From: an uncultured Caulobacterales bacterium
GTDB lineage: Bacteria; Pseudomonadota; Alphaproteobacteria; Caulobacterales; Maricaulaceae
DNA length: 34,447 nt
Direction: 5' to 3'
Assembly: GCA_938040095.1 (NCBI GenBank)
Contig: CALHXF010000067.1
Location: 1-34,447 of the forward strand
Made by a program: the position numbers and the translations under genes. Below, piece after piece: positions 603 to 22,754 of this stretch. The notes beneath the pieces were generated by a model, which was not told where the DNA came from, did not search any database, and worked only from the letters and a program-made list of their open reading frames with translations. Position 1 is the first letter of the stretch; each line of letters starts with the position of its first letter.

Positions 603-3600
603 CTATTTAGGGCCTCTAGGATTATCTGACACGTAATAGGGTTTTCCATCATTGCCGATGAACATGTTTTCCATTTCATCTCTTGTGAATGGACGTGATC
701 CCAGACGACCAAAAACTGCCATTTGGTGTCCGCTCTCATCCACAGCGCGATCACGGTCGATACCTTTGGCTAGTGATCGCGCAGGAGACTTCGTGCGATG
801 CCAAGCAATTAGTTCAGGTTTCGGTTCTGGAGAAAAGCCGTAGAAATTTGGTTGGGTCTCTGGGCTTGTCAGTTGGATGACTTTGGTGCCGTTCACGCCG
901 TCTGCGACATATGCAAATAATGATGCATTTGTACTGCCAATGACGACGTCTTGAGTGTCGTTCATTTTGCCATCAAACGTCTCGCGACTATAGAGTGTTG
1001 GCGCTTCCGGCTTCTCAATGTCTACAATAACCAAGCCTTCTTCGCCGCCAGCGACATATGCATAGGTTCGTGCAATATACATACCCTGCGCATCCTTCAT
1101 TGGAATTGTTGCGCCTGGGACAAGTTTGGGCTTTCCAAGGTCGGTTACATCCAGAACCTTAAGGCCCTCAGCATCTGTCACCCAAAGATAGCGGAATTGA
1201 ATGTCAGTCTGCCGAGCATCCTGAAGAGGTATTTGCGACGTGACCTTGGGAGCCAGAGGGTCGTTCAGATCAACAACAACCAACCCAATATCCGTGGTGA
1301 TATATGCAAAATGTCCACCAAGCGTAATGTGCCTAGCCCCTTTCAATGCCCCGTCAGCATCCCACGTCAGCGCCCGTTTCAAGAAGTTATTACGCGGCTC
1401 CCCATCTGCTAATGTGTTCACATCTACGAGGATCAACCCTTCAACACTATCGGTTACAAAGGCATAATTATAAATGGGATGGAACGGCTGCTCTTGGTTT
1501 AGCCTCTGCATTTCTGGCGTATTTTTGGCTGGGTTAATTGGCTGGTTGGTTGCCAAGGTCATGCAGGTCGCATTTTTCGTTTTAACGTGTGTGTCATGCC
1601 CCAGTGGTGAGAATGGCGCGGTCACAATGCGTTCAGAAATGCCCTTATTTGCGACAGACGCAATATCATATACACGGAATCCCCCCTTGCCTTCGGCGAC
1701 GTAGAGATACTCGCCTCTATTCTGGATACAGCCGACTTGCCCGCCGGTTTTCTGATGAACATTGGCGATCTCTTCAACAGCGCCTGTTTCTCCAGACCAT
1801 TTATTATCCTTGTCAAAAATGTCGCCGCGTTGCCAGTTTATCAACTCGCGATCATTCCGTTCGACATGTGCTTTATAATAATCAGGATATGCATATTTTT
1901 GCAGGTATGACCCAAAGACAGCTTGAGGTTCATCCCATTCGGTCACGCGAACCGCTTCCAAACCCCCATCAAGGCCAACATAATTGTGCATGCCAACAAA
2001 GTTGACGAAATTCGTTCCGAGCAACATGAGTTGGGCCATGATCGCATTGTTGTCCCCCTCAACAGAAAGATGACAGTCTGAGCAGGTTTTCGTTTCCTCA
2101 CGGCGCACAGTATGCGGGAAATGGGGCGCGAATGCCTGGCTCGAATACCCGACGGCCGATACTGGCGGTTGCTGCACATAAATGCGTTCGCGGTTTAAGT
2201 TTGTTGAAGACAGCACAAGTGCGGATGTTGACCGAATTGGCGCAATCGAATTGCCCTTAGAGCTCTGATGTTTACCGAGCTGGAACATCTGATCCCGCGC
2301 AACCTGAGGATTATAGGTCGCATAATTGCGGGTCGTCCCGCCTTCGTATTTATGTGATTTCTTTTTCCAATTTGCTTCGATCGGAAGATGACATCCACCG
2401 CAGCTGGTCGTCCAAGACAGGTGACACGTATAGCATTCCATTTCTTCATCATCATGGGCAAGATTTTCGGGTGCGACGTCGTCACCCCAATCGACATTAT
2501 TCTTTGCCACGGTTTTCGCCCAAGCGGATTTCTCGTTAAAGTCTGGATGGTCTTTGGTTACACTATCCTTCACGAGACTGACTTTCCATGTCAGCTCAGG
2601 ATCCAAAACCGACCTTTGTAACAGCACATCTTGGCCGTCTTCCTCAACCCATTCAAACCTACGCTTTCCGTCAGGATTTCTGAGCGCCGTTAAATCTGTT
2701 CCACCCGGACGGGCAGCGGGACCAGAGGTATATAAGTTCGGCAATTTTTTGGCTGTGCCATGGCAATCCTTACATCCGATCTCAACGGCGCTCGCGACCT
2801 CGCCGTGAATAAAACCGTCCCCATGGCTGTCTTGCGTGAAATGACAATCAACGCAGTTCATACCCTTTTCGGCATGAATAGACATCATGTGTACAGTTTT
2901 GCCTGGGTTCACGCCGACCGGTACAAATTTAGCCTCATCACCCTTTCTGAATTTTTCAGGATCATCTGGATCTACGATATTACCGTCTTTGTCTAAAAGG
3001 TTACCTTTGCGGTCCCGCTTGAACACGGCTCGAAAATTCCAACCATGCCCATGATAATCGGCAAATTGGGTGTCATTTAATTCACGGTTTAGGTCATACA
3101 CATTGCGAGAGAACTCTGGATCACCCCACAGCCCGCGTACGGCAGCACCCTCAGGGTTGCGCTCTAAGACTTCATGTTGTTCTTCTATCGTCGGGTATTT
3201 TTGCTCTTCTGGCCACATCTTGGCCGCGTCAGACTCATAATCCCACATCGTATACCCAAGAAATGAATTCAGGAAGATATTTGGTTGGTGCATATGACAA
3301 TTCATGCACTGGCTTGTTGGGATGGCACGGGTAAATGCGTGCTGAATTGGATGACCTTTTTCGTCTTTCGGAATGGTCGGATCTTTTGAAAAACTCTTAC
3401 CGTCACGTCCATATTTTGCGTAGATAGAACTGTGCCGCGGTTCTCTGTCATTGGCATAAACAACATGACAAGACGCGCAACCTGAATTTCGATAATCACC
3501 AGGTTGATCATTCGTGCCCATGAACCAAGTAAACGGATCATTTAGACGCGTTTTATGGATATTGAGTACGGGGATGGCCACGCGAGACCCTGTTCCTGGC

Positions 3601-4484
3601 CCTCTGTTTGACTGCCGAATATCTGGACGCCCTGGTTCTTCAATACGTTGGATTTGCCCAGCCGCATTGGGAAGTCCAATTTCAGGGAACTGCGTTCCGA
3701 TGTTTCGGCCACCAGGCTCAAAAACGCGAAACGTATCTGCGGGTGGAATTACATTCCAAGCGGGCAGAGGACCTACTTTTTGGAGTATGCCCGCAGCTTT
3801 TTGCGCCTCTGTTAGTCCGTCTTCAGTGCCCGGTGAGGTCAATACAGCTGGCTTACCATCCGTTGTATAGGCCTCGCCGATATTATAATTTTTGTTTGGC
3901 AGAATACCGTTATTGTAAGCCGCTCCACCAAAGAACATTGCCCCTGTCGCCATTAATGATCGCTCTGCCTGAACGATTTGTTCCAGATGACAGGATCCAC
4001 ATGACTCCCGCGCTACGCGGTAATCTGATGGGTTTACAAATCGAATATATTCTGGGCTTTCCTTGTTCAGTAATGTGTAGCTGCGCTTAGGGTTTGCAGA
4101 ACTAGGGTAGTGCCACGTTTCAGGATATTTCGGTTGAACATGAGCTTGATCGCGAAACGCCTCATATTCAGGTGCCTCTTCATTTAACAAAACTGACACT
4201 TTGATCGCAGCGTCGCCGCCATGACAATCTGTGCATCCCAAGACAACAGATGGAATATCATGCATGGTTTTTTGATCTGAATTCGTATGACACGTAATAC
4301 AGCCAGAGCTCTTCGTCTGCGCTTCGGCCGCAGTCTGGACACGCGGGGCTGGTGGTGTGAATGCGTATGTAATTTCGCGCGGCACTTCGTAGTCGCCCGC
4401 CGCATAAGAAAATATCGACAAGCTAAGGCCCGTCAGCAGCATCAAGAAGATTGCAAACAAGTGATATATGTATGATCGCGCCAT
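603..4484 (-). CDS. Decaheme cytochrome c with C-terminal LVIVD beta-propeller
   Basis: About 1293 aa, exported. The first 30 residues form a Sec signal with a hydrophobic core ending near SYA-A. Ten CXXCH haem motifs follow: CITCH (63), CTDCH (85), CGSCH (163), CASCH (337), CMNCH (394), CVDCH (545), CKDCH (572), CYTCH (685), CGGCH (696) and CSDCH (802). From about residue 890 there are six LVIVD-type repeats (for example YAFVTDSVEGLILVDV and AYITTDIGLVVVDLNDP), a family predicted to fold as a beta-propeller and often found on cell-surface proteins. The track's first codon is TTG; the ATG one codon later (4484) overlaps the barrel gene's stop as TGATG, so I use it. It is the last gene of the operon. 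Likely role: terminal or surface-exposed electron-transfer protein. No enzyme active site is recognised. Confidence 0.9.
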   Translation of the reverse strand: MARSYIYHLFAIFLMLLTGLSLSIFSYAAGDYEVPREITYAFTPPAPRVQTAAEAQTKSSGCITCHTNSDQKTMHDIPSVVLGCTDCHGGDAAIKVSVLLNEEAPEYEAFRDQAHVQPKYPETWHYPSSANPKRSYTLLNKESPEYIRFVNPSDYRVARESCGSCHLEQIVQAERSLMATGAMFFGGAAYNNGILPNKNYNIGEAYTTDGKPAVLTSPGTEDGLTEAQKAAGILQKVGPLPAWNVIPPADTFRVFEPGGRNIGTQFPEIGLPNAAGQIQRIEEPGRPDIRQSNRGPGTGSRVAIPVLNIHKTRLNDPFTWFMGTNDQPGDYRNSGCASCHVVYANDREPRHSSIYAKYGRDGKSFSKDPTIPKDEKGHPIQHAFTRAIPTSQCMNCHMHQPNIFLNSFLGYTMWDYESDAAKMWPEEQKYPTIEEQHEVLERNPEGAAVRGLWGDPEFSRNVYDLNRELNDTQFADYHGHGWNFRAVFKRDRKGNLLDKDGNIVDPDDPEKFRKGDEAKFVPVGVNPGKTVHMMSIHAEKGMNCVDCHFTQDSHGDGFIHGEVASAVEIGCKDCHGTAKKLPNLYTSGPAARPGGTDLTALRNPDGKRRFEWVEEDGQDVLLQRSVLDPELTWKVSLVKDSVTKDHPDFNEKSAWAKTVAKNNVDWGDDVAPENLAHDDEEMECYTCHLSWTTSCGGCHLPIEANWKKKSHKYEGGTTRNYATYNPQVARDQMFQLGKHQSSKGNSIAPIRSTSALVLSSTNLNRERIYVQQPPVSAVGYSSQAFAPHFPHTVRREETKTCSDCHLSVEGDNNAIMAQLMLLGTNFVNFVGMHNYVGLDGGLEAVRVTEWDEPQAVFGSYLQKYAYPDYYKAHVERNDRELINWQRGDIFDKDNKWSGETGAVEEIANVHQKTGGQVGCIQNRGEYLYVAEGKGGFRVYDIASVANKGISERIVTAPFSPLGHDTHVKTKNATCMTLATNQPINPAKNTPEMQRLNQEQPFHPIYNYAFVTDSVEGLILVDVNTLADGEPRNNFLKRALTWDADGALKGARHITLGGHFAYITTDIGLVVVDLNDPLAPKVTSQIPLQDARQTDIQFRYLWVTDAEGLKVLDVTDLGKPKLVPGATIPMKDAQGMYIARTYAYVAGGEEGLVIVDIEKPEAPTLYSRETFDGKMNDTQDVVIGSTNASLFAYVADGVNGTKVIQLTSPETQPNFYGFSPEPKPELIAWHRTKSPARSLAKGIDRDRAVDESGHQMAVFGRLGSRPFTRDEMENMFIGNDGKPYYVSDNPRGPK

Positions 4485-6421
4485 CAATAGGTCAGCGTCG
4501 CATTGAGTAGCGCGGAAAGATAGCGGTTTTTATCGTCATTATTTGCAAAAACACGATCAAACCCTCTCCCCGGCTCCAGTGATGCAATCGAACCCCTGAG
4601 TACAATATTCTGCGAGAATTTGGGCCGCCAAATTGTAGAGGCTGAGAGATCATACCCGATCGTTTTATTGATATCTCCTTGGACCCTCAAAACTTCTAAT
4701 ATGTCGGTCTTGTCAAACTGAAGTACATTGGCATTTAAGGATAGGCGAACCTCGGGAGTGAGGTCAAAATCGGCGCCTAAGCCTAATAGCCGAGTCCCAG
4801 GGTTGTTGAAATTACTTTGCCCTTGTTCTTTCGACGAGCGCAAAGAATTTAATATGCCGTTTCGCCCACTGAGACCTACCGCACGCCCGCCACCTATAAA
4901 TGGAACGTTTTGTCTGATCCAATAAGACGAGTCTGCGCCCGCAAATTGAGGGTTTTCGAATATGGCATCGAAACCCGTTTCCACATCATCATATGGGTCG
5001 CCATCACCCGTCGCAAAAAGTCCCGACAACCTAAACCGCATCCAATTATAGTCGTAAGACAACTCTGCAGCTGCGAAGCCTGCACTGATCGTAGCAGGTT
5101 TACCTGTGAAAATGTTGTCACGGTCTTCACCAATCGCGTAATAGGCGGAACCCGTGATGTTTAGGCGCTTGAAACGTCCATCGACATTGTAACCGAAATA
5201 TCCAACGTCATAATCACGGGCCCGTAAATTCCCGATCAAAGCGGGGCGCACAGGGAACCCATTCGTATCTATTTCACTCTGCGCGCCTTCCCGGTTACCA
5301 TTGTAAACAACTGTAACTTGCGACGTAAGCCCCGGAACGGGAAAGTCCTGCCGGTAGAGGTTTGCTAACAAGATCACATCGTAACGCGGCGTTCTCAAAA
5401 CAGCGTTCAACCCAGAATTTGTGTCTTTTTCAAGCCTCATGAATGCGGCTAAATTATATTGGTATCGGTTGTTATCTCGGTTCCCAAAAAACCTAACCCC
5501 AGGCTGGCTGTCCTGAAAAAGAAAACCGCGGAAGTCAGTAGAGAACGGCTGGATACCGACACGCACAGAATCAAAGTCGTACAGATCTGAGACATTGCGA
5601 ATATGGTAATCTATGAACGCTTCTTGTATCCCAAGAAAGACATCGGTGCGCTCGGTTCCTTTGGACGGCTCGACATATAGCACCCGCTTTTCATTGACGC
5701 GCGCGTGATTGATATTGAGGGCGGCCGTTAGCCTAAATTCTAAATCCTGAGGTTTAAACGTTGTATTGCCTTGGATCAGGGCGGCACTCGCCACGAAGGT
5801 TTGCGCCAACAAAAGCGTATCAGGATCCCCAAAGAGATCATTTGATCGCGCTTCCGTTGTTTGAACGCCAACAGGAATAGGAAAGCTACGGGGTTCAATA
5901 ACCGTATCAGAAATACCTGTTAGAACCAGAAACCAATCCTCTGTACCCTTTAGGGGGCGATCACCTTTCAAGGTATTTTGATTGTAAGGGTCCCACCACC
6001 GCTCATTTACCCCAAAATTCTCAATAACGCGCCATCGGTCTGGCAATGGGATTTCGTCTGTCGGAAAGGTCGCGGGCTGTGGAGGCGCGACAGACGCAGG
6101 ATCAAACGGACGATCCCGCGTGGGCAAGGGTTCAGCTTCACGGCCTGGTATACGCCGCGTTGTCTGTGGCCTGTTCACAGGGTTTGTATCGGCAACACTA
6201 TCTGGAGATGTTTGGTCTGTCTGCGAATACGTTTCTGAAATTTGAGCCGTCTCAAAAAATTCGAGGATTATGGGTTCCCCGCTCACAACATCGAACCCAT
6301 CAAGAACCGTAAACGCAGGTTTCAAACTCGGTATGGGAACGTCAGATGTCGCCCTCACCTCCGTCGCAAACGCCACACAGAAAAGAGCAACACCAAATGA
6401 GATCCTACGGTCCCAGAGCAT
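4484..6421 (-). CDS. Outer-membrane beta-barrel protein of the cytochrome operon
   Basis: About 645 aa. A signal peptide precedes a likely cleavage after EVRA. A Pro-rich linker (about 35-95) follows, then long alternating aromatic/polar strands typical of an outer-membrane barrel, and the chain ends in NATLTY with a terminal aromatic residue. I see no CXXCH, so it carries no c haem itself. The ATG at 6421 overlaps the previous stop as TAATG, which makes it a better start than the TTG at 6436. The next gene overlaps it as TGATG, so the barrel and the decaheme protein are probably made in matched amounts. By analogy with porin-cytochrome conduits such as MtrB/PioB it could hold a multihaem protein in the outer membrane. 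I see no recognisable MtrB sequence, so this role is inference. Confidence 0.75.
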   Translation of the reverse strand: MLWDRRISFGVALFCVAFATEVRATSDVPIPSLKPAFTVLDGFDVVSGEPIILEFFETAQISETYSQTDQTSPDSVADTNPVNRPQTTRRIPGREAEPLPTRDRPFDPASVAPPQPATFPTDEIPLPDRWRVIENFGVNERWWDPYNQNTLKGDRPLKGTEDWFLVLTGISDTVIEPRSFPIPVGVQTTEARSNDLFGDPDTLLLAQTFVASAALIQGNTTFKPQDLEFRLTAALNINHARVNEKRVLYVEPSKGTERTDVFLGIQEAFIDYHIRNVSDLYDFDSVRVGIQPFSTDFRGFLFQDSQPGVRFFGNRDNNRYQYNLAAFMRLEKDTNSGLNAVLRTPRYDVILLANLYRQDFPVPGLTSQVTVVYNGNREGAQSEIDTNGFPVRPALIGNLRARDYDVGYFGYNVDGRFKRLNITGSAYYAIGEDRDNIFTGKPATISAGFAAAELSYDYNWMRFRLSGLFATGDGDPYDDVETGFDAIFENPQFAGADSSYWIRQNVPFIGGGRAVGLSGRNGILNSLRSSKEQGQSNFNNPGTRLLGLGADFDLTPEVRLSLNANVLQFDKTDILEVLRVQGDINKTIGYDLSASTIWRPKFSQNIVLRGSIASLEPGRGFDRVFANNDDKNRYLSALLNATLTY

Positions 6422-8418
6422 TACTTTCCCTCGCAAGGGTTCTGGGCGCTTGAATCAAGAAACGGGGCAAAGGGGCAACTCACATATCGTAAACGAATAT
6501 CTTCACCTTTTACGGGCACGGTAATGATATCGGCGCGCACGTCTTTCGGTGCGTTGCCAAGCGTGCCCAATTTCACACCTGCGTTGTGAACGCCGAGGAA
6601 AGAGATCATATCATCTTGGTCAATCCCGTCACCTGACACCCCAATACCGCCAACGAGTTGGTTCCCTTTGTAAATCGGTACAGATCCTGGAAATATCTGA
6701 ATCCCATTCTGCAATCTATTTTGGCCGGCAATCGCATCAGGCAAAAAGGTACACCGTTGCGCCGTATCGGTATTTGGTAATCCACCACTTAGAACAAAGG
6801 TTACATGCTCAAGGATGTTGCCTCCAATGAGGTCCTCTTGAAGCCCCGTCGCAAAAGGGCTGAATTCAGAAATAGGTCGAGATAATGGCCCATTGTCGGT
6901 CCCGACTTCGCCGTCTGGAAAATAGGGCCTTGAAAGATTTCCGCCCGATCGATCCGCAAATGCAACCGTTCCCGTCAAAGCGTTCCCGTCGTTTAAGAAA
7001 GACCTGATTTGTGGAACACGCTCAGAAATTTCTACGTTGGGACCAGGCGCACCTGAAGCGATAGAGCTCAACCTCGTACCTAATAGATCACTTCCAGCAC
7101 TCGTGTTGGAGAAAAAAGTCGCCGTTCTTGCCTTTTGCAAAGAGACATCCGTTCCGAAAATCGGCGCATCGGGCGATCGTACGACACCTAAAATAGTTCC
7201 ATATGTATCAACCACGGAGATGCTAACTTGAGCACGGCTATTTAGAGGTCTCCGAATTTGCGCTCGCGACGATGTCATGACGGTAAAGGCTTCTTCGATG
7301 ACGGTCCGAACCTCGACAGCCGTTAGAGGACTTGCCACTACGCCACCATCAGCCCCTCCCCTAACCGGATAACGGTTAACGCCCGAACCATCAGACAGAA
7401 CAAAAACATCAGGATTCGCATATTCAGACGAGGTCGCAGGACGCATCCCAGAACCTTCCAAACTATAAGCCTGTCCTGGAACAATAGCCCCCGCACTATA
7501 TCCGTTCACAGATTGTAGAGCGCCCTCTGTTGCAAGAAGGCTTGCATAGGCAGGTGTGGACGCCAAATCTGAGCTCAAATCACTTTCATCGCGATCCAAA
7601 AATCGCAGCGTTGTACCATCAACCGATATACGCTCCGCACGGATATTCAGCGGCGCTGAAAATCCTGACATACCCGCGACAGCGATCAGTTCTTCATCAT
7701 CTCGATCAATGTCGTTGACTTCCGTATCAAACCCATAATCGGCATCCGCAGATATCCCGATGCCGCCAACCACAACTCCATTTTTATAGAGCGGAAAGCC
7801 GCCAGGGTCAGCAGAAAGGCCCAATGGCGCACGTTTCGGCCCAATGGTGTTCCCGAAACGTTGCGAAAGATCAGAACATGGCAGTTGTGAAAATTGCACC
7901 CCGAAGAGCGGGCCACTTTCCAACCCAACAGCATTTTTAGAAGGTGGAAAATGCTCCTGCACAATCATACTTGCCGTTCTCGTCGAGAACGCATTGCCGG
8001 CAGAGGATAGATAAGCTCCGGTTAGGGCTTTCGATATAGCGGCGAGTTCGCGCGGCACATCCTGACCTTGTAATCCAACATTTGCGACCCCCTCAAAATT
8101 TCGAGGACCGCGGCGGATTTTTGTGGTGGCACTGGCTCCATTCATTGTAAAAACAGCGAGAACATTACCAGGGCGGTCAACAACGGCAATCACGCCCCTA
8201 AGATTTCGAGCTTTTGCCTCAGATACCGCTTGAGCGATTATGTCCTCTATATCTGAAATGGTCAAATTTTCAGGAGCTGGAACCGCGTAAAGCGCCTGCC
8301 CAACAAGCGGCGCGGGCGGCGGAGCTTGGACGGGCGCTGTTGTTGACGTTCCGCCACCACCGCAGGAATTGAGGAAAAAGGCTGATCCAGATATAAAGGT
8401 TAGGAGGCTAACCCGCAT
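6421..8418 (-). CDS. Lipoprotein with two GlcG/HbpS-like domains
   Basis: 665 aa. The N-terminus has a hydrophobic core followed by FFLNSCGGGG, a near-lipobox with a Cys suited to lipid attachment. Two domains of the GlcG/HbpS (former DUF336) type can be seen. The first begins about LTISDIEDIIAQAVSEAKAR with a VIAVVDRPGNVLAVF strand and the GGIGISADAD signature. The second has VSISVVDTYGTILGVVRS and the GGIGVSGDGIDQDD signature. HbpS is a haem-binding, redox-linked extracellular protein; GlcG is of uncertain function. The ATG has an AGGAG about 10 bases upstream and overlaps the cytochrome gene ahead by 11 bp; the next gene follows as TAATG. A role in haem handling or as a redox partner anchored in the envelope is inferred from context. 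Confidence 0.8.
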   Translation of the reverse strand: MRVSLLTFISGSAFFLNSCGGGGTSTTAPVQAPPPAPLVGQALYAVPAPENLTISDIEDIIAQAVSEAKARNLRGVIAVVDRPGNVLAVFTMNGASATTKIRRGPRNFEGVANVGLQGQDVPRELAAISKALTGAYLSSAGNAFSTRTASMIVQEHFPPSKNAVGLESGPLFGVQFSQLPCSDLSQRFGNTIGPKRAPLGLSADPGGFPLYKNGVVVGGIGISADADYGFDTEVNDIDRDDEELIAVAGMSGFSAPLNIRAERISVDGTTLRFLDRDESDLSSDLASTPAYASLLATEGALQSVNGYSAGAIVPGQAYSLEGSGMRPATSSEYANPDVFVLSDGSGVNRYPVRGGADGGVVASPLTAVEVRTVIEEAFTVMTSSRAQIRRPLNSRAQVSISVVDTYGTILGVVRSPDAPIFGTDVSLQKARTATFFSNTSAGSDLLGTRLSSIASGAPGPNVEISERVPQIRSFLNDGNALTGTVAFADRSGGNLSRPYFPDGEVGTDNGPLSRPISEFSPFATGLQEDLIGGNILEHVTFVLSGGLPNTDTAQRCTFLPDAIAGQNRLQNGIQIFPGSVPIYKGNQLVGGIGVSGDGIDQDDMISFLGVHNAGVKLGTLGNAPKDVRADIITVPVKGEDIRLRYVSCPFAPFLDSSAQNPCEGK

Positions 8419-9790
8419 TAGATCTCAACTCCTGTAGGCGCCCCCGCAACACTTTTAGAGCGGTCGTCAGTTGGTCTTGATCGTACTCATTTGGACTTTC
8501 GACGGCATCATATGCCTTGTTGATTTCATTTCGCATGCCTGACGTTTGCGCAAATGAGACTTGGTTTGCTGCAACCATGGAACTCAACAGCGTATCGACA
8601 GCCATAATTGCTTGTTCGGCCGCGACATAATCGGTGTAACGGCGTGTCAGAGCGTCCTCCACGACAACCTCAAGAATGCCTAACGTCTGATTTTTAGAAA
8701 AATCAGTCTCAGTCACAACCTTCATCAAATCTTCAGCCAAGCCTTCCAAGCTCTGGCTCACTTCACTTGCATCCCGACCGCCACCAGCCAAACTCGCGTG
8801 GAAAGCCTTAATTTCAGCATCAAGTTTTGGCGCAAGGTCTGGAGCAATTTGCTTCGCAGTGGCCAATAACATGATCATATTTGCGTCGTTAAACTTTACG
8901 ACTCCTGGAGCTTCGGGCCGTCCAGGGTTGGACCGAACTTCAGGGCGCCAATCCGGGTCATCTGAAATCTCTCGATGGCACGCGAGACAGTCGAAGAAAA
9001 CAAGCTCTGGGAAGACGCCGTCTCTGTTTAAGGTTGGCGTCTGAAAAAGCGCGAGGTTTCTCTTCATCGCCTTCGCTTGACCAATGGCCCAAATGCGAAC
9101 GCCTGGCTGCACGACCTTTCGCTCAAAATAATCTACGTCCTCATCGTGATGACTTTGCAATGACGTAAAGAGGTCCAACTCAAATGAAATACGCGGGTGT
9201 CCCGCAGCCATCATTCTATGTGTCACGAATTGGTTGTTGTCCGCGCTGCCTAAGTGACAAGACAGACAGACGTCGGCTCGCGAGCCCGCGTCTTCCAAGG
9301 GCGTTAGGCCGAGGCTAACATTCTTCGTATGGCTGGCCCCGACGTCATAATGCTGGGTCAACCAATTGACGGACCCACCATGACATGCCTCGCATCCAAT
9401 TCCGTCATCTACTTGAAACTTGGGGCCCCGTAAGTTTTCTGCGACATTATCTGAATGGCAGCCGAGACAAGAAGGCTCTTCTTCGGGCTTGCCTAAATTG
9501 AGCCGCTGCGTAATCGCACTCGATCGTTCTGAGAGTAAAATCTTATACGCTCGCAGATGCGCGCCTGTTGTTGAAGTTTGGTCTTGCCAACTGAGAATTT
9601 CATTCTGGCGCACAACGACACCTGTCGCCTCTTGTCGCGAGTGACATGTCGAGCCGTAACAGCCCATAATCCCTTGATGCAAAGCTTCGTTCGCTGCCGT
9701 CGTAGAAGGTTGCACTTGAGAAACGGCTGGAGACGTAGCCAAAGAGAGCAGGAAAATAACTGCAAATGTACATTTCGATAAAAATCGCAA
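8408..9790 (-). CDS. Periplasmic multiheme cytochrome c, c554-like family
   Basis: 460 aa with a Sec signal (FAVIFLLSLATSPAVS). Haem sites: an unusual CYGSTCH (CX4CH, residues 44-50), then CLGCH (108), CEACH (133), CLSCH (175) and CLACH (268). The spacing, the HRMMAAGHPRISFELD segment and the helical haem-free C-terminus match the c554-type multihaem cytochrome family, whose members are periplasmic electron carriers or oxidoreductase partners. The start is a TTG preceded by AGGAGG about 10 bases upstream; no ATG lies nearby. It is first in the minus operon, divergent from the oxidoreductase gene. Likely role: soluble shuttle between the inner-membrane cytochrome and the outer-membrane pair. 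A catalytic role is not excluded. Confidence 0.85.
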   Translation of the reverse strand: MRFLSKCTFAVIFLLSLATSPAVSQVQPSTTAANEALHQGIMGCYGSTCHSRQEATGVVVRQNEILSWQDQTSTTGAHLRAYKILLSERSSAITQRLNLGKPEEEPSCLGCHSDNVAENLRGPKFQVDDGIGCEACHGGSVNWLTQHYDVGASHTKNVSLGLTPLEDAGSRADVCLSCHLGSADNNQFVTHRMMAAGHPRISFELDLFTSLQSHHDEDVDYFERKVVQPGVRIWAIGQAKAMKRNLALFQTPTLNRDGVFPELVFFDCLACHREISDDPDWRPEVRSNPGRPEAPGVVKFNDANMIMLLATAKQIAPDLAPKLDAEIKAFHASLAGGGRDASEVSQSLEGLAEDLMKVVTETDFSKNQTLGILEVVVEDALTRRYTDYVAAEQAIMAVDTLLSSMVAANQVSFAQTSGMRNEINKAYDAVESPNEYDQDQLTTALKVLRGRLQELRSNAG

Positions 9791-9942: not shown

Positions 9943-12399
9943 ATGGCAAATAAATACGATATAGCCGTCATCGGCTCTGGGCCAGCCGGCATCAGCGCAG
10001 CTGCCCACGCGGCAGAGCTTGGTCTTTCTCACGTCCTTCTCGAAAAAACAGACCACCTTTCCGATACAATTTACAAGTATCAAAAAGGCAAGCACATCAT
10101 GGCCACGCCCGACCAGCTTGTCCTACGAAGCGACATTGATTTCGAAGCTGGCAAACGGGAAGATATTTTGGCCCGTTGGGAAAATCAAACGCAGCAAGGC
10201 GAACTTAACGTCGCTTTCAATTCTGATGTCAGTGAAGTCTCCGGAGAGAAAGGCGACTTTCTTATTAAGACTAAATCTGGCGAGACCTTTAATGCCGCCC
10301 ATGTAATTTTAGCCATCGGGACGCAGGGCAATCCAAATACAATGCGTTGTCCTGGCGGCGATTTACCACATATTCAATACACATTGGATGACCCTTACGC
10401 TTACTTCGACGAAGATATTATCGTTATCGGCGGCGGTGATGCTGGGATCGAAAATGCAATGGGGCTTATTGCGAATACGCTCCTGGCCAACCGTGTGACA
10501 TTGGTTCAGCGTGCGGATGGCTTCCCGCGCGCAAAAGAAGCCAATGTAAAATCCTTGCTGCAAGCCATGAATGAAGGGCGTTTGGACGTCCTGACACAAG
10601 CGGAGACGAGCCTCGTCGAAGATAAGTTTATCACCCTCAATGTGAGTGATGGCGAAACACGATTGCCCTGCGACCGTATTATTGCCCGCATAGGCTCCGC
10701 ACCACCACGGAAATTTGTTGAGAGCTGCGGGGTCGCTTTTGCGTCAGATGATCGGATGGCATATCCGATTTTGAGTCCAACTTTCGAAAGCTCCGTTCAT
10801 GGCCTCTTTGTCGTCGGTGCATTGGCTGGATACCCTCTCATCAAACATTGCATGAACCAAGGCTATGACGTCGTGGAGCACATAAATGGCAATGTTGACT
10901 TGAAACCAGCAGATGAACCCTTGCTCGCTGAGAAGTTTGCAAAGCTCCCCGGCGATAACGACGTCAGTGCTATTCTTGAGTTTTTGCGGCAGAAAATCAC
11001 AATTTTCAATGATCTCACGTCGCTACAAATGCGTGAGTTCATGCTGGACTCTCAGGTACACGTTTTCAAAAAGGGCGACACCGTCTTCAAACGAAATGAT
11101 TACGGCTCATCCTTGTTCTCTATTGCAGAGGGCATCGTTGACGTTCTCATCGACCCTAATGATTCCACAAAAACCATCGCAATTTCTGAGGGTGAAATTT
11201 TTGGCGAAGCTGGATTGATTTCTGGGCGACGTCGAAATGCAACGATCGTCGCGGCCTCGGACTGTATTCTGGTAGAGACGCCGCGAAACTCCGCGCGAAA
11301 ACTCATTTCAACGGTGCCCGCTGTCGAAACGCGGGTGAACCAGATTGCCGTTGAGCGCCTGCTCTCTCAAATATTCGGAGCAGGGCTCTCGAAGACAGAA
11401 TTTTCTGCGGTCATTGCGGATGCTGAGATTAAAACGATAAATGCCGGTGAGACCCTTATTGAAGAAGGCGCGGACGACACCGACATATTCATCATCCGGT
11501 CAGGGTCGATGTTGGTTGAAAAGCATATCGGCGGAAAAGATGTGTTTTTGTCTTATGTCTCCGCCGGGAGTTATGTTGGCGAGATGGCGCTCTTCGAAGA
11601 AGGCCGCCGCACAGCGACGGTGAAGGCTGCTGTAAAATCTCAAGTCATTCGCCTTAAAGGCGCGTATTTCGAATCCCTATTGGGTGCGAACCCTGATCTC
11701 AAAGCAAAAGTCATGGATGAGCTCTCAGACCGTAGAGCTATGAATGCATTCGTAGAGGGTCAAAAAAGCGGATTTGATAGCGTCGCAGACCTCTATGGTG
11801 CGCGGGCAAACTTTCTGATTGAACAAGGTCTAGGCGAGGCCACTGACGCTTTACTCATCGACGAAACCCTCTGCATTGGCTGTGACAATTGCGAGGTCGC
11901 GTGTGCGGAAAGTCATGACGGCATCTCGCGCCTCAATCGAGAGGCGGGACAAACATTTGCGCATATCCATGTCCCTACATCCTGCCGCCATTGCGAACAT
12001 CCACATTGCATGTCTGACTGTCCGCCAGACGCTATTCATCGCGCGCCCGATGGTGAAGTTTTCATCGACGACAGCTGTATCGGATGTGGAAATTGCCAAC
12101 GATATTGCCCCTACGGCGTTATTCAAATGGAGAAGACGCCACCCAAAAAGCCGAATTTATTGTCGTGGATGTTGTTCGGCGTCGGGCCAGGACCCGGTCA
12201 AGCCAATAAGGCTTGGACGAAAAAGACGCTTGCGAAGAAAGGCAACGATGCACCTAAAGTCGCGGTCAAATGCGACATGTGTAAGGGCATCACGGGCGGC
12301 GCGGCCTGCGTGAGGGCCTGTCCAACAGGCGCCGCCATTCGCGTGTCACCAGAGGAATATCTATCCTATTCCAAAGACCCGACCAAAGCCAAAGCTTGA
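9943..12399 (+). CDS. FAD/NAD(P) oxidoreductase fused to two cNMP-binding domains and a four-cluster ferredoxin
   Basis: 818 aa, no signal peptide, so cytoplasmic. Residues 1-315 are a two-dinucleotide-fold flavoprotein: GSGPAG (11-16) for FAD and GGGDAG (163-168) for NAD(P)H. It resembles thioredoxin reductase-like proteins but lacks their CXXC. Two cyclic-nucleotide-binding domains follow (about 370-455 and 495-580). The second has VGEMALFEEGRRTATV, a textbook phosphate-binding cassette with the Arg; the first (FGEAGLISGRRRNATI) is degenerate. The C-terminus (640-800) is a DmsB/NrfC-type ferredoxin with four cysteine groups: 644-654, 681-693, 712-722 and 777-793. An AAGGGAG lies upstream. 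The next gene overlaps as TGATG. It probably moves electrons between NAD(P)H and the membrane cytochrome b under direct cyclic-nucleotide control; the control is inferred. Confidence 0.9.
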   Translation: MANKYDIAVIGSGPAGISAAAHAAELGLSHVLLEKTDHLSDTIYKYQKGKHIMATPDQLVLRSDIDFEAGKREDILARWENQTQQGELNVAFNSDVSEVSGEKGDFLIKTKSGETFNAAHVILAIGTQGNPNTMRCPGGDLPHIQYTLDDPYAYFDEDIIVIGGGDAGIENAMGLIANTLLANRVTLVQRADGFPRAKEANVKSLLQAMNEGRLDVLTQAETSLVEDKFITLNVSDGETRLPCDRIIARIGSAPPRKFVESCGVAFASDDRMAYPILSPTFESSVHGLFVVGALAGYPLIKHCMNQGYDVVEHINGNVDLKPADEPLLAEKFAKLPGDNDVSAILEFLRQKITIFNDLTSLQMREFMLDSQVHVFKKGDTVFKRNDYGSSLFSIAEGIVDVLIDPNDSTKTIAISEGEIFGEAGLISGRRRNATIVAASDCILVETPRNSARKLISTVPAVETRVNQIAVERLLSQIFGAGLSKTEFSAVIADAEIKTINAGETLIEEGADDTDIFIIRSGSMLVEKHIGGKDVFLSYVSAGSYVGEMALFEEGRRTATVKAAVKSQVIRLKGAYFESLLGANPDLKAKVMDELSDRRAMNAFVEGQKSGFDSVADLYGARANFLIEQGLGEATDALLIDETLCIGCDNCEVACAESHDGISRLNREAGQTFAHIHVPTSCRHCEHPHCMSDCPPDAIHRAPDGEVFIDDSCIGCGNCQRYCPYGVIQMEKTPPKKPNLLSWMLFGVGPGPGQANKAWTKKTLAKKGNDAPKVAVKCDMCKGITGGAACVRACPTGAAIRVSPEEYLSYSKDPTKAKA

Positions 12400-13256
12400 T
12401 GAAGACACGCAAGACCAGCCCTGCTCAACACGTCAGCTTTCTGGCCCATAGAAGGTTTCTGTGGTTGAAAGTCTCAGGCGCTCTCTGCGTCCTCAGTATT
12501 GTTGGCTACGTGTCTACTGATTTTGATCCCGTCCGAAATGGTGGGACATGGTACGGATACACACTGGGCGTTATCGGTGCTCTACTCATTCTGTGGCTGT
12601 CTTTATTAGGCGCGCGTAAGCGCGCAATCACAGCCGGTCATTGGAGCTTGAAGGGGTGGACATCAGCTCATGTTTACCTTGGTGTCTCGTTGATCATCGT
12701 CGCAACGCTACACAGTGGATTCCAATTCGGATGGAATGTTCACACGCTCGCCTATGCGTTAATGATCTTTGTCATTCTGTCGGGCATTATCGGTGTCTTC
12801 TTCTATGTCTATATTCCCCGCCGCATGAGCGACAATAGAGCGGAAATGGGGCAGATGGACATGCTCAAAGATATCTCAAATCTGAATGCCATGCTTGATG
12901 ACGCGGCCCAACCCTTGAGCGATAAATATGTACCCATTGTCCGAAAGGCTATTGATAAAACAAAGTTGGGCGGCTCAATATTCCGTAGATTATCTATCAA
13001 TGATGCGCGTTGCTCCACGCGCGAAGCCCTCACTTACTTTCAGACAGAAATGCGGAACGTTGAAGCCAAAGAACGCTCTGAAATTCTAGACATGATTTCA
13101 GTATTGGAACGTAAGAATTCGCTCTTGCTCAAAATCCGAAAGCACACGCGCTACAAGGCTCTTTTACAAATTTGGCTATATGTCCACTTACCTGTCACTT
13201 TCGCTTTGATAGCGGCCCTGATTGCCCACATCATTTCCGTTTTTTACTATAATTAG
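12399..13256 (+). CDS. Diheme membrane cytochrome b (ferric-reductase/NOX-like core)
   Basis: 285 aa starting at the ATG that overlaps the oxidoreductase stop (TGATG); the track's TTG one codon earlier is less likely. Five hydrophobic segments lie at about 22-40, 52-70, 88-108, 117-138 and 256-280. Helix 3 carries H91 and H105 and helix 5 carries H263 and H277. Both pairs have 13 residues between them, the arrangement that binds two stacked b haems in NOX/ferric-reductase-like proteins. A charged loop of about 115 residues joins helices 4 and 5, predicted on the cytoplasmic side, and could dock the flavoprotein/ferredoxin. There is no FAD or NADPH domain in this protein, so its reductant must come from a partner, most simply the gene just upstream. 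Confidence 0.8.
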   Translation: MKTRKTSPAQHVSFLAHRRFLWLKVSGALCVLSIVGYVSTDFDPVRNGGTWYGYTLGVIGALLILWLSLLGARKRAITAGHWSLKGWTSAHVYLGVSLIIVATLHSGFQFGWNVHTLAYALMIFVILSGIIGVFFYVYIPRRMSDNRAEMGQMDMLKDISNLNAMLDDAAQPLSDKYVPIVRKAIDKTKLGGSIFRRLSINDARCSTREALTYFQTEMRNVEAKERSEILDMISVLERKNSLLLKIRKHTRYKALLQIWLYVHLPVTFALIAALIAHIISVFYYN

Positions 13257-13265
13257 GGAGGCGAC

Positions 13266-15059
13266 ATGACGAGCACTATACGTAATTTGAAACGCAGCCC
13301 CACAGGTCGTGAGAGCATTCGAGAACGCGATTACGACGGGTCAGAGCTCTCATTTGGGCGCGACATACAATCCGACGTTCAATTGCAAGATCTCAGCGTT
13401 GCACTGAAACATGCCAAGCTAAGGTATGATGAGACCGGTGAGGTTTTCATCGATATTAGCGCGGGCCAAAAAGCTCTTATCAATAATCGGATCAGAACGG
13501 GAGTCGTCGGACCCCTTCAGGTCGGGACCAAAGTGAAGCTAGGGATCTATTTGATAACCCTTGAGGCCCCTACCGAAAAATCTAAGCTCGTCGCCCAGTT
13601 GGAAGTTGCCGAAGATATTTCTGGGACAGAAAATGAACCAGATGAGCAAAGCGTTTTTGGTCTAAAACGCGCTCTTCCTTCCAAACGCATAATGGCATGG
13701 GCGTTCGCATTTGTGGTATTGGTCACCTGCCTCGTATTACCAACGCATATCAATAAATATCCTGAAGGTAAGGTCGCAGTAGCCACCCCGTTTCAAGCTG
13801 ACCTATTTTGGAATAGCGGCCCAATCTCATTGCTGCATTCAAATCTAAAATCAGACTGCCAAAGTTGTCATGTCAAAGGGTGGGAAGCCGTTACCGACAC
13901 AACATGTTTGGACTGTCACACAGAACTGAAAGATCACGCGAAACCCGAAAGACTGCAACAAAGCACACCACTATCGACTGGGTTTGAGGCCGTATTGGGC
14001 GATGTAAGTGAAACATTTGGACGACCCGTTGACCGCTGCACCTCTTGCCATGTCGAACATAACGGGCGGGCTCACATCATGCCGTCCAGTCAGTCCCTCT
14101 GTAGCGATTGTCATGCGGATCTAGACAAAGCCTTACCAGATACAGAGCTGCTCAATGCCGCCGACTTCGGCACAGCTCACCCTCAATTTCGACCATCTGT
14201 GATCACGTCTCCTAGCTTTGATAAGCCGCTCTACACACGGGTCTCTTTAGATAAAGATCCGAAAGGGGTCTCCGGGTTGAAATTCCCACATGACGTACAT
14301 TTGTCCAAAACTGGCGCGGTGGCTAAGATGGCCAGCACATTAGACTCTCAATATGAATTTGCCGACGGAGTTGGGTGCCTTGACTGTCATAGTGAAGAAG
14401 CGGGCGGTGCCCTGTTTGAACCCGTGAGCATGACCAATGATTGCGCCATGTGTCACTCCATCGTTTTTGAAGACGATGAAGGTTATCCAAGAACATTGCG
14501 GCACGGAGAACCCAAAGAAGTCATCGCCTCTATGAGGGATTTCTATGAGGCTAAAGCATTAGGAAACATTCGCGATGCTGAGATGAATACCACAACTCGC
14601 CGGCGTCCTGGACGCGCATCGCAAATCCGGGACCTCAATCGAAGAGAGCTTGCATTTAAGCAGGCGGAAAATAGAACGATAGAAAAAGTCGAAGCGATAT
14701 TTTCGGAGGGTGGGGCCTGCTACGATTGCCATGCCATTGACCGGCCAGCGGAAATTGCGACTTTGGATTTCAAGGTCCAGCCCATCAGTCTTAATGACGC
14801 CTTCTACCCCCTATCACCATTCAATCATGAGCAGCACGAAATCAAAGGGCTGTCGTGCGATACATGCCATAGTGCGGAGACGTCAAAGACATCCGATGAT
14901 GTATTACTGCCAAAAATTGAGGTTTGCCGTGATTGTCATATTGGCGAAGAGAGCTATCGTGAAGGCGGGGACTTTGCACATGGGAAATTCCCGACTAATT
15001 GCTTGACCTGTCATGCTTACCACGACGGCGAGCATGGTAAGGACAATTCAAAAGACTGA
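13266..15059 (+). CDS. FHA domain-TM-decaheme cytochrome c fusion
   Basis: 597 aa with AGGGAGG four bases before the ATG. Residues about 20-100 form an FHA fold (FGRDIQSDVQLQDLS...KHA), predicted cytoplasmic. One membrane helix follows (142-160). The rest is periplasmic with ten CXXCH motifs at 198, 214, 258, 279, 371, 393, 485, 531, 554 and 579, resembling cytochrome c3-type modules. FHA domains bind phosphothreonine; here Gly31-Arg32 and His49 are kept but the conserved Ser is Ala46 and the Arg after it is Leu47, so normal peptide binding is doubtful. It lies 9 bp after the cytochrome b gene. Likely role: accept electrons from the b haems and pass them into the periplasm, with the FHA domain as a docking or signalling handle. 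Confidence 0.9.
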   Translation: MTSTIRNLKRSPTGRESIRERDYDGSELSFGRDIQSDVQLQDLSVALKHAKLRYDETGEVFIDISAGQKALINNRIRTGVVGPLQVGTKVKLGIYLITLEAPTEKSKLVAQLEVAEDISGTENEPDEQSVFGLKRALPSKRIMAWAFAFVVLVTCLVLPTHINKYPEGKVAVATPFQADLFWNSGPISLLHSNLKSDCQSCHVKGWEAVTDTTCLDCHTELKDHAKPERLQQSTPLSTGFEAVLGDVSETFGRPVDRCTSCHVEHNGRAHIMPSSQSLCSDCHADLDKALPDTELLNAADFGTAHPQFRPSVITSPSFDKPLYTRVSLDKDPKGVSGLKFPHDVHLSKTGAVAKMASTLDSQYEFADGVGCLDCHSEEAGGALFEPVSMTNDCAMCHSIVFEDDEGYPRTLRHGEPKEVIASMRDFYEAKALGNIRDAEMNTTTRRRPGRASQIRDLNRRELAFKQAENRTIEKVEAIFSEGGACYDCHAIDRPAEIATLDFKVQPISLNDAFYPLSPFNHEQHEIKGLSCDTCHSAETSKTSDDVLLPKIEVCRDCHIGEESYREGGDFAHGKFPTNCLTCHAYHDGEHGKDNSKD

Positions 15060-15129
15060 AAACAAGACGGGCATAGACTCAGGCGCACAGAAAATTTATC
15101 CACTTTCTTCAGGAAAGAGACTTTGTTTC

Positions 15130-15993
15130 ATGATGAATGATCAAAACAGAATGATCATCGCACAGATCACCGATTTGCACATCGGGTTTGAAGGCGAAGG
15201 TGAGATTTGCCAAAATTCTGGTAAACTGCAAAGCGTCCTACGAAACATCGACACGCAAATCCTCAAGCCCGACGTCTTGCTCATTACGGGGGACCTCGTC
15301 GAGAGCGGATCTCACTGGGCCTATTCCCAACTTCGTGACCAGTTGCGCGGTGTTGATTACCCAATTTTATGGGCGGTTGGAAATCATGACAATAGAGACG
15401 CATTTGCTGAGATATTCCCCGATGCTGAGTTCAACGCAGGGTTCCTTCAATACGCGGTTGAGGATTGGCCCCTGCGTATCATTACATTGGATACGCTACG
15501 ACCTGAATATCATGGTGGGTATCTGTGCGAGACGCGTCTCAAATGGCTGGATCAAAAATTATCAGAGAGACCTAGTCAGCCCACCCTGATCGCAATGCAC
15601 CACCCGCCTATCGATACAGGCATTGCGTGGATGACAGAGCGTGACGACGCCCCCTGGATTTTGGGTTTGAAAGCGGTCCTCAAAAAACATGATCAAGTTG
15701 TCCACATCACGGCAGGCCATATTCATCGATCCATATTCCGTAAATTTGACAATCTAACGGTTTCCGTATGTCCAGCTATCGCACCAGAAGTAAGCCTAGA
15801 ACTGGCCCCAATTGATCCAAATCTCCCTGATAACCGCCCGCTCTTAAACACCTCATTTCCGGGGTATTGTTTGCATCATTGGAATGGAGACACACTCACC
15901 ACACATGCTGCGACCGTTACGGCAGGCGAAGCTATTGTTAAACATGACTCAGATCATGCCTTCATCGTCCAACATACGATGCATGGGAAATGA
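15130..15993 (+). CDS. cpdA: CpdA-like 3',5'-cyclic-AMP phosphodiesterase (class III metallophosphoesterase)
   Basis: 287 aa from the ATG at 15130. The longer ORF from 15013 would overlap the cytochrome gene out of frame, and the catalytic domain starts only at MIIAQITDLHIG. Motifs in order: TDLH (metal), LLITGDLVE, GNHD, MHHPPIDTG and AGHIHRS, the set of calcineurin-type class III cNMP phosphodiesterases such as CpdA. Length fits the family (about 275 aa). An AGGAAAGAG lies about 12 bases upstream. It follows the decaheme gene by 70 bp on the same strand, so it is probably in the same operon. This ties cAMP breakdown to the redox module. The substrate is inferred from family membership; related enzymes can act on other phosphodiesters. 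Confidence 0.8.
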   Translation: MMNDQNRMIIAQITDLHIGFEGEGEICQNSGKLQSVLRNIDTQILKPDVLLITGDLVESGSHWAYSQLRDQLRGVDYPILWAVGNHDNRDAFAEIFPDAEFNAGFLQYAVEDWPLRIITLDTLRPEYHGGYLCETRLKWLDQKLSERPSQPTLIAMHHPPIDTGIAWMTERDDAPWILGLKAVLKKHDQVVHITAGHIHRSIFRKFDNLTVSVCPAIAPEVSLELAPIDPNLPDNRPLLNTSFPGYCLHHWNGDTLTTHAATVTAGEAIVKHDSDHAFIVQHTMHGK

Positions 15994-17002: not shown

Positions 17003-19339
17003 TTATTTTGAAGTTGCGATGTGGACGCCGTTCCAGTCAGGCGCGGGCGGCGATACCTTATACTCATCTATGCGCGCGGCCATCACATCATAATAGCCAT
17101 CAAAACCAAGGGGCCGCGCCAGTAATTTTAGTTTCGGGATTTCGATGACCGCCGCCTCCCATTGTTGGTCTCTGAACGCAGCCAGAAAGTCATTGTGTAG
17201 GGCCTTCAATTTGTCGAAATCTGATGTCGCCGACTGGGTCTCATCACCTACAAGGATCCAAATACGCTCTGGTGTTTCACGTCCGATGACCTTTATCAGA
17301 TCGGCTTCTATAATCGCGAAATCAGAGACAGCCTGAGCCGTTGTATCTCCGATCAATGACGAGACACGATATTGTTTTGTTAGCCCTTCAATACGTGACG
17401 CGAGGTTGGCGGCATCCCCAATCATGGAGTATGAAAAGCGTTGCTCCGACCCCAAATTTCCGACGCAACACACACCTGAATTGAGGCCAATTCCCATGGC
17501 AACATTATCAGGCCAGTTTACGTCATCCTGCGCTGTATAAGACTCATTCAGCTCGGCCAAAAGCGCATTCATTTTAAGGACTGCCCGCGCCGCATTTTTT
17601 TCATGGGCATCATCATCTAACGGCGCATTCCAAAACGCGACGATGGCATCGCCGATATATTTATCGATTGTCGCCTTGGAATCTTGAAGTGTGTTCGTCA
17701 TTGGCGTCAGGAAAATATTTAAGAAAGTTGTGATTTCTTGAGGCTCCAAGGCCTCTGAAATTTTTGAGAAACTTCGAATGTCCAAAAATAAAATCGTAAT
17801 ATATTTCTCCTCACCTCCCAGTTTGAGGAGGTTCGGATCGTCTGACACCTGCTTCACCATTTCCGGGGAAAGATACATAGAAAAGGCCGATTTAATGCGC
17901 GAACGTTCTGACTCTGTCATGTAAAAGGACACAATCGTCATCAATCCATATGTCGTGAAAATGGTCAACAACGGATAGGTCGGATTAATCAACAGCAGGT
18001 ATTTCGAGAATGCCGACCAAGAGAACCCTGCAATTCCAATAGCCAGCCCTGCACTAAAAATCGCGCCCCATGCTGCGGTCATACGCGGGAGAGTAAAGAC
18101 CAGAAAAAGACCCGGAACCAATATGGTCAGAAGCTCCCAAATTTCGGCCCAATAGGGACGATTCAAAATTTGTTTCCCCACGAGCCCCTCGCCAAGAATT
18201 TGCTCCGTAATCTGAGCATGTGCAAGCACACCCGGTTCCCCGCCCCGCATTGGGGTCGTAACAATATCTTTCAGGCCCGGCGCGCTTGTTCCGATAAAAA
18301 CGATATTTCCAGCAACACGGTCAGACCAGTTTTCCATAGGGATGGACCGATCTAAAATCGTTGAGGCAGATATGAAACGAGCCTTCTGAAGATCAGAAGA
18401 TGGTTTGGTGAAATACACTTGGAATCCACCATTTTTTGAGATCGGCCAGTTGAAATCACCGGTGGCCATAGACGAAAGGTAACGATCTTTGGCCCACCCC
18501 CCGATTTCTCCAGAACCATCGGAGCTCTTGAGTTGAAAGGCACCTGCCCCCTGAACGGTTCGGATCATCTCCGCGGATAGGCTTGGGTACAATTTTCCAT
18601 TATACTTATAGACCATTGGGGCGGTGCGAATGATCCCATCACCCGTTGGGTTAAAGCTGACGAAGCCTTCACCTGCTGCTGATTTTCCCAAGACGGGTAG
18701 AGCCGCAAATGCCCCCTTAAAGTCGAGAATATTTTCGACTTCTTTTACATCGCCATTTTCCTCAATTTTTACATCCCACGAATATGTGAAACCCGTTGAC
18801 GTCGTAGGGGAGCTTCGTGTGCTCTCACCTACGAGAAAAAAGCCAGTGACGACATTGGATTTAGCAAAGGATTGTGAGAGAATTTCGTCATGAGGCAGGA
18901 GGCGTTTTAGGGCGCTCATATCTCCAGTCGCCATCGGATTGTTTTGCAATACCCCAATCATATTTTCGGGCGATGTCCGATCGGGTTCCGAAAAAACAAT
19001 ATCATATCCGATAACGGCCGCCCCTGCTTCAGTCAGGCGATCATTGAGGTCGGCAACGATCGTTCTCGGCCACGGCCATTGGCCTATTGTCTCAAGGCTC
19101 TTATTATCAATATCAATTATCCGTACAGGCACCTCAGGAAGATATTCCCGAGGTTGCCAAGTTTGGTAGCGATCGAAGAGCAGGTTCCCCAGCTGTTCAA
19201 CCATGCGGGGTTTGGATATATTGGCAAAGTAGAACGCCAGCAGGCACAACAAACCCAACGCGCTTGGGATGAAAACTTTCTGTCGCTTTGAGGGCATTTT
19301 AACCCAATTTTTAAAGCGGTTCATCATCTCAAAAATCAC
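17003..19339 (-). CDS. CHASE2-domain class III adenylate/guanylate cyclase
   Basis: 778 aa from a GTG; two ATGs 4 and 5 codons downstream are alternative starts. An N-terminal helix precedes a periplasmic CHASE2 sensor domain (about 45-390, with VPVRIIDIDNKSLETIGQWP). Two or three membrane helices follow (about 395-470), then a cytoplasmic class III cyclase domain. Metal-binding aspartates sit in LFLDIRSFS (about D520) and KYIGDAIVAFW (about D564). The Lys before the second Asp suggests adenine recognition, and the transition-state Asn and Arg are in GDAANLASRIEG (about N645 and R649). All catalytic positions seem intact. It makes cAMP or possibly cGMP in response to an extracytoplasmic signal. 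It lies 35 bp downstream of gdhA on the same strand and converges on the bestrophin gene. Confidence 0.85.
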   Translation of the reverse strand: MIFEMMNRFKNWVKMPSKRQKVFIPSALGLLCLLAFYFANISKPRMVEQLGNLLFDRYQTWQPREYLPEVPVRIIDIDNKSLETIGQWPWPRTIVADLNDRLTEAGAAVIGYDIVFSEPDRTSPENMIGVLQNNPMATGDMSALKRLLPHDEILSQSFAKSNVVTGFFLVGESTRSSPTTSTGFTYSWDVKIEENGDVKEVENILDFKGAFAALPVLGKSAAGEGFVSFNPTGDGIIRTAPMVYKYNGKLYPSLSAEMIRTVQGAGAFQLKSSDGSGEIGGWAKDRYLSSMATGDFNWPISKNGGFQVYFTKPSSDLQKARFISASTILDRSIPMENWSDRVAGNIVFIGTSAPGLKDIVTTPMRGGEPGVLAHAQITEQILGEGLVGKQILNRPYWAEIWELLTILVPGLFLVFTLPRMTAAWGAIFSAGLAIGIAGFSWSAFSKYLLLINPTYPLLTIFTTYGLMTIVSFYMTESERSRIKSAFSMYLSPEMVKQVSDDPNLLKLGGEEKYITILFLDIRSFSKISEALEPQEITTFLNIFLTPMTNTLQDSKATIDKYIGDAIVAFWNAPLDDDAHEKNAARAVLKMNALLAELNESYTAQDDVNWPDNVAMGIGLNSGVCCVGNLGSEQRFSYSMIGDAANLASRIEGLTKQYRVSSLIGDTTAQAVSDFAIIEADLIKVIGRETPERIWILVGDETQSATSDFDKLKALHNDFLAAFRDQQWEAAVIEIPKLKLLARPLGFDGYYDVMAARIDEYKVSPPAPDWNGVHIATSK

Positions 19340-21770: not shown

Positions 21771-22216
21771 GTGTTGTCATCCATTACACGTTTCAGAACA
21801 GCTTGTTCAGCCTCCGTAAGTTGGCGCGGCGTTTCTATATTGGGTTTCTGCCTGCGCGCTGCGAAGATCAACCATATGCCCATACCAAAAATCGTAAGCG
21901 CCGGGAGAAACCAAAGTAAATATGTGTTCTTTTGCAATGGTGGTTTTAGCAGGACGTAGTCACCATAGCGAAGACGCATAAATTCTATAATTTCTGCATC
22001 TGTTGCGCCAACGGAAATACGCTCTCGCACTAAAACTCGCATATCTTTCGCGAGGGCAGCATCGGATTCTTCGATTGATTGATTTTGACAGACAACGCAA
22101 CGCAGGGATCGCCCCACTTCGCGCGCCCGCGACTCAACCTCCTCAGCACTCGGGACGGTTTGTGCAAAGGCGATACTCGATAGGAGCAACAGACAAAGAC
22201 AGATAACGGACCTCAT
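21767..22216 (-). CDS. ccmH: Cytochrome c maturation protein CcmH
   Basis: 149 aa. A signal peptide (MRSVICLCLLLLSSIAFA) precedes the RCVVCQNQ redox motif that reduces the apocytochrome haem-binding cysteines, and one C-terminal membrane helix (LLWFLPALTIFGMGIWLIF) anchors it. The short length matches the CcmH/CycL form with CcmI as a separate protein. It overlaps both ccmG and ccmI by ATGA junctions. It acts in the periplasm with CcmF. Confidence 0.95.
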   Translation of the reverse strand: MRSVICLCLLLLSSIAFAQTVPSAEEVESRAREVGRSLRCVVCQNQSIEESDAALAKDMRVLVRERISVGATDAEIIEFMRLRYGDYVLLKPPLQKNTYLLWFLPALTIFGMGIWLIFAARRQKPNIETPRQLTEAEQAVLKRVMDDNT

Positions 22217-22752: not shown

Positions 22753-22754
22753 CT

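Follow-up and report, generated by a model that had tools for sequence, protein, structure and literature searches.

A decahaem cytochrome fused to an LVIVD propeller in a conserved gene cluster that may carry electrons across the cell envelope

We analysed a 34,447-nucleotide stretch of DNA from an uncultured Caulobacterales bacterium (contig CALHXF010000067.1), hereafter the window. The genes gD, gC, gB and gA follow one another in that order in an operon on the minus strand, gA being the last, and neighbours overlap by 4-16 bases. The genes gE, gF, gG and gH run divergently on the plus strand. The features are as follows.

gA, 603..4487, minus strand: 1294-aa cytochrome, predicted to be exported, with ten haem sites and a C-terminal LVIVD beta-propeller
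gB, 4484..6436, minus strand: outer-membrane beta-barrel of about 18 strands with a predicted AlgE-like fold; 4-base overlap with gA
gC, 6421..8418, minus strand: lipoprotein with HbpS/GlcG-like domains; LNSC lipobox at residue 16
gD, 8408..9790, minus strand: exported c554-type cytochrome; four CXXCH and one CX4CH give five haem sites
gE, 9943..12399, plus strand: cytoplasmic FAD/NAD(P)H oxidoreductase with two cyclic-nucleotide-binding domains and 4Fe-4S ferredoxin domains
gF, 12396..13256, plus strand: membrane cytochrome-b-like protein; His 92, 106, 264 and 278 invariant
gG, 13266..15059, plus strand: N-terminal FHA domain, one hydrophobic helix and ten CXXCH (periplasmic decahaem domain)
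gH, 15013..15993, plus strand: SpdA/CpdA-like cyclic-nucleotide phosphodiesterase (metallophosphatase)
gJ, 17003..19339, minus strand: CHASE2-adenylate/guanylate cyclase

A TTG start for gA gives 603-4487 and an ATG one codon later gives 603-4484; the true start of gH is probably downstream of 15013. We found no FNR- or CRP-like box in the 152 bases between gD and gE, and the counts of such boxes over the whole window reflect degenerate matches.

Haem region and propeller of gA

A motif scan located CXXCH motifs of gA at residues 63, 85, 163, 337, 394, 545, 572, 685, 696 and 802, the decahaem region covering residues 63-806. The sequence-only reading of this DNA had placed ten such motifs within the first 810 residues, with gaps of about 170 residues between haems 3 and 4 and about 150 between haems 5 and 6; both statements hold, the measured gaps being 174 and 151 residues. 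When gA was shuffled 2000 times, the mean number of motifs was 0.011 and the maximum 1. A chance origin of the set was dismissed, since orthologues keep the haems invariant: in an alignment of 59 orthologues, drawn from Alpha- and Gammaproteobacteria, every one retained all ten motif histidines. Thirteen further histidines were invariant across the same 59 sequences, enough to make a candidate set for the ten distal ligands. At the N-terminus, a single hydrophobic stretch forms a signal sequence without a lipobox, and gA is probably exported by Sec with no lipid anchor. Given this lack of a lipobox, attachment of gA to the outer membrane is a property that we infer.

The propeller occupies about residues 906-1220 and matched the Pfam LVIVD family (PF08309) with an E value of 1.9e-18 and 65.9 bits (gathering cut-off 20.2). 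A simple motif scan recovered five repeat cores, at 927, 1060, 1098, 1142 and 1191, and the repeat that it missed, YAFVTDSVEGLILVDV at about residue 1010-1025, was recognised by eye, which brings the total to the six repeats originally proposed for the C-terminus. In the AlphaFold model, the C-terminal ~300 residues are mostly high-confidence beta-propeller strands. The haem region was modelled at low confidence (pLDDT mostly 25-88), and for this reason Foldseek with the gA model returned generic propellers only. Neither gA itself nor profiles built from gA and gB gave a useful match among PDB sequences.

Like the LVIVD repeat proteins of PF08309, gA has six repeats and scores above the curated cut-off; it differs from them in that its repeats are fused to a decahaem cytochrome. 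Other matches, in named plasmid records, were to Calx-beta or PGF-pre-PGF proteins and extended over the propeller alone. The haem half and the propeller were fused in every complete gA orthologue examined, and the mean column majority was 0.80 for the former and 0.75 for the latter. This similar degree of conservation indicates that the propeller is an integral part of gA.

The outer operon and its known counterparts

The model of gB has about 18 strands, and its top Foldseek match was AlgE, the alginate exporter of Pseudomonas aeruginosa, whose 18-strand barrel is the nearest solved fold. Identity between gB and AlgE was 11-14%, and gB had no match in Pfam or NCBIfam. Unlike the context of AlgE, the window contains no alginate genes. 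The earlier description of a propeller on a multihaem protein adjoining a barrel gene was thus correct, and docking of the gA propeller to this barrel is plausible. The genes gD-gC-gB-gA were kept together in nearly all loci where the flanks permit a check, and the five haem sites of gD were preserved in 65 out of 65 orthologues. One of these sites is the unusual CX4CH haem-type motif of gD (8408-9790), which reads CxGSTCH in most orthologues and is itself invariant in all 65.

The operon holds a periplasmic cytochrome, a barrel and a larger multihaem cytochrome, the same parts as the Mtr/porin-cytochrome complexes (MtrABC, OmbB-OmaB-OmcB). In an Mtr-type conduit, the periplasmic cytochrome would be threaded in the barrel and gA would lie entirely on the exterior, where it would reduce minerals or further extracellular acceptors, while the propeller would bind surfaces or cap the barrel. 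Besides the gene content of the operon, with its decahaem gA, the presence in some loci of an adjoining gene for a two-partner secretion exoprotein favours this arrangement. However, the prediction for gB is about 18 strands, AlgE/OprD-like, against about 26-28 for barrels of the MtrB type (28 are predicted for MtrB itself; PMC5877670), gA is not a lipoprotein, and gD carries five haems instead of ten. The gA system also differs in that it co-occurs, in every genome tested, with the gE-gF-gG feed module described below. It therefore resembles the porin-cytochrome systems but lacks two of the features that define Mtr, namely a large MtrB-homologous barrel and a multihaem lipoprotein on the outer surface, and we consider a conduit of this type unlikely.

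We then compared the haem half of gA with ExtM. In Geobacter, the ext cluster encodes ExtM, for which twelve haems are given, together with the outer-membrane porin ExtI and a cytochrome b, and has been linked to the reduction of selenite and tellurite (PMC5877670). Against the NCBIfam model of ExtM (NF040943), gA scored 81.2 bits where the curated cut-off is 800, and it was rejected as an ExtM equivalog on this ground. It has ten haems, invariant in 59/59 aligned sequences, and not the twelve of ExtM. Other Alpha- and Gammaproteobacteria encode 12-haem cytochromes of the ExtM-like type, ~790 aa long (L094 7209-9557, L095 6905-9349 and L096 7047-9425), and L110 has an 11-haem variant; these proteins serve as a bridge from gA to ExtM. 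By eye, the neighbours of the L095 gene are bc1-like genes and a gene for a NapC-like multihaem protein.

HHalign aligned the haem half of gA with the 12-haem relatives over ~580 columns with a probability of 99.9%. The ten haems of gA were collinear with haems 1, 2, 3, 5, 6, 7, 8, 9, 10 and 11 of the relatives, and several spacings agreed closely between gA and its relatives (57 and 56 residues for haems 4-5, 27 and 27 for 6-7, 113 and 117 for 7-8, 11 and 11 for 8-9). The 174-residue gap between haems 3 and 4 corresponds to 127 residues in L094, which contain one extra haem, plus ~47 residues, whereas the 151-residue gap between haems 5 and 6 corresponds to 65 residues in L094 and holds an insertion of ~86. 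The large gaps had been taken for inserted domains interrupting the haem wire. Insertion does account for most of the 5-6 gap, but the 3-4 gap is ancestral apart from ~47 residues, and the collinearity of the ten haems points to one lost haem and insertions and not to a broken wire. By this alignment, the haem half of gA is a diverged relative of the 12-haem ExtM-like cytochromes, and gA is a relative of ExtM and not a member of the family: the collinear haem core and a cluster that includes a porin and a cytochrome b are shared, whereas gA has two haems fewer, the 5-6 insertion, the fused LVIVD propeller and other partner genes.

This kinship bears on the possibility that gA is a soluble periplasmic reductase, of selenite or tellurite for example, with gB as a substrate porin only and the propeller as a structural or substrate domain. 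The profile homology to ExtM, the missing membrane anchor, the finding that loss of ExtI lowers selenite and tellurite reduction (PMC5877670), and the fact that the Erythrobacteraceae hosts belong to lineages with tellurite-reducing aerobic phototrophs are all in its favour. The ExtM score nevertheless stays far from the cut-off (81 against 800 bits), and the sole tellurite reductase purified from an aerobic phototroph has subunits of 62 and 55 kDa, unlike gA (PMC5488091). We judge such a reductase a little less likely than the Mtr-type conduit; the link between the ext cluster and these oxyanions still makes selenite and tellurite reasonable first test substrates for the gA system.

The inner-membrane module, its distribution and its neighbours

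The four histidines of gF were conserved in 36/36 orthologues and likely form two haem-b sites, as judged from their invariance; gG kept its ten CXXCH in 49 of 50 orthologues. Fifteen gA genomes were checked for gE, most of them because it does not adjoin gA in the locus retrieved; all 15 had it, elsewhere or nearby. In an even sample of the phylum, full-length gA occurred in 11 of 399 genomes; all 11 had gE, as against 4 of the 388 genomes without gA (Fisher p 1.5e-18, a value that ignores kinship). From this co-occurrence, the second half of the system seems required and not incidental. One gammaproteobacterium carries all seven genes in a single run, gE-gF-gG-gC-gB-gA-gD. The gE-gF-gG genes were also found without gA (genomes G001 and G034) and thus look like a general feed module. 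Loci L120, L121 and L122 show the module in proteobacteria without detected gA, and in L121 a single ORF of 1118 aa fuses gE with gF.

When one genome was scanned for each GTDB species, 439 loci related to gA were recovered. The best 80 of these, from Sphingomonadales, Caulobacterales and relatives, were nearly full length with 64-75% identity, and Algimonas arctica (72%) and a MAG (75%) were among the closest. About eleven homologues (57-68%) were found in a sample of the class of genome G368, which was taken as Gammaproteobacteria. Cross-class identity was 58% for gA, 56% for gB and about 47-49% for gE over the full length, and 44% for gC, 38% for gF, 34% for gD and 27% for gG. Since gA and gB rank among the highest in this comparison, the outer end appears to be the most constrained.

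Homologues of neighbouring genes were counted across loci by direct tblastn with named proteins, clustering of the flanking genes having been largely swamped by antisense ORFs of the high-GC genomes. Of the loci examined, 27 had a gJ homologue close to the cluster. The cyclic-nucleotide-binding domains of gE match PF00027 in two stretches, above the cut-off (118.9 bits). Together with gH in the same operon and the nearby CHASE2 cyclase, these domains suggest control by a second messenger, and gJ is a possible source of the signal that gE would read.

Other neighbours were noted. In the Sphingobium locus L132 (515-8668), the genes directly upstream of gD encode a transporter for two-partner secretion and a protein of 2092 aa; the latter had no Pfam match and is likely the exoprotein. 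By tblastn, exoprotein homologues lay beside the cluster in 16 loci and transporter homologues in 8. The window itself encodes a FecR-domain protein and a Slam-like TPR-barrel protein (24760-27086; SlipAM just below the cut-off), and homologues of the pair adjoin the gA cluster in 7 loci, in Caulobacterales. Either set of neighbours may supply a surface partner for the system. Also in the window, and near the multihaem operons, are the cytochrome c maturation genes ccmI, ccmH, ccmG and ccmF (20814-24725, by eye); in 36 loci the gA cluster has a CcmH-type TPR gene nearby. A gene for a Bestrophin-like membrane protein (16084-16989, by eye) separates the feed operon from the CHASE2 cyclase.

A putative chain between cytoplasm and outer membrane

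Altogether, these data indicate that the conserved gene set probably takes up electrons in the cytoplasm and delivers them to the outer membrane. Our fuller reading, to which we give a probability of about 0.55, is that the genes of the window specify a trans-envelope electron-transfer chain, so far uncharacterised and linked to cyclic nucleotides, in which gA is the terminal cytochrome and docks at the barrel gB. In such a chain, NAD(P)H would reduce gE in the cytoplasm through its FAD and Fe-S centres, at an activity set by a cyclic nucleotide via the two binding domains. Electrons would then pass to gF, the inner-membrane cytochrome b with two haems, to gG, a membrane-anchored decahaem protein with its FHA domain on the cytoplasmic side, and through the periplasmic pentahaem gD to the ten haems of gA. 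The propeller would dock on the 18-strand barrel gB, on the lipoprotein gC or on both, holding gA at the outer membrane, where gA would reduce an acceptor arriving at or through the barrel. The named hosts are mostly regarded as aerobes, and this counts against a chain that needs an alternative acceptor.

gE has an NAD(P)H/FAD fold, which points outward and is the one indication of direction. The same parts could in principle run in reverse, gA oxidising an extracellular donor and the chain reducing NAD(P)+ or quinone, but the relatives of gE are NAD(P)H disulphide/thioredoxin-reductase-like enzymes, and the window ORFs examined included no genes specific for a donor or for carbon fixation, which makes inward flow very improbable. 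Equally improbable is a role in iron or haem acquisition, in which ferric chelates or haem would be reduced at the outer membrane and gC would handle haem or iron: the HbpS-like gC is a constant member, but a coarse clustering test of orthologous loci gave no TonB receptor or iron-uptake gene as constant neighbour, and 25 c-haems would make a costly ferric reductase.

Returning to the outward chain, a more specific version would be cyclic-nucleotide-gated electron export in bacteria that are mostly aerobic. The cyclase, the phosphodiesterase and the gE sites would then switch the flow along ~25 c-haems to an outer-membrane cytochrome tipped by a propeller. We put this forward tentatively, as a possibility that is rather doubtful at present.

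The genes of the conserved module carry labels such as 'hypothetical protein' or 'multiheme c-type cytochrome', and those of the Sphingobium herbicidovorans cluster have generic RefSeq names. In the one library searched, we found no description of the gA system in the literature on LVIVD and multihaem cytochromes, and none matching it in that on multihaem cytochromes of Sphingomonadales or Caulobacter; experiments on any member of the system were likewise absent from the literature searched. Electron transfer at or beyond the outer membrane has been studied mainly in anaerobic metal reducers. Hundreds of Sphingomonadales, Caulobacterales and relatives, as well as some gammaproteobacteria, have kept the module, and several hosts are culturable (Sphingobium, Novosphingobium, Erythrobacter, Brevundimonas). 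If electrons do leave these cells by way of it, a large electron outlet would have been overlooked, one that a second messenger may control and that could be tested in easy laboratory hosts.
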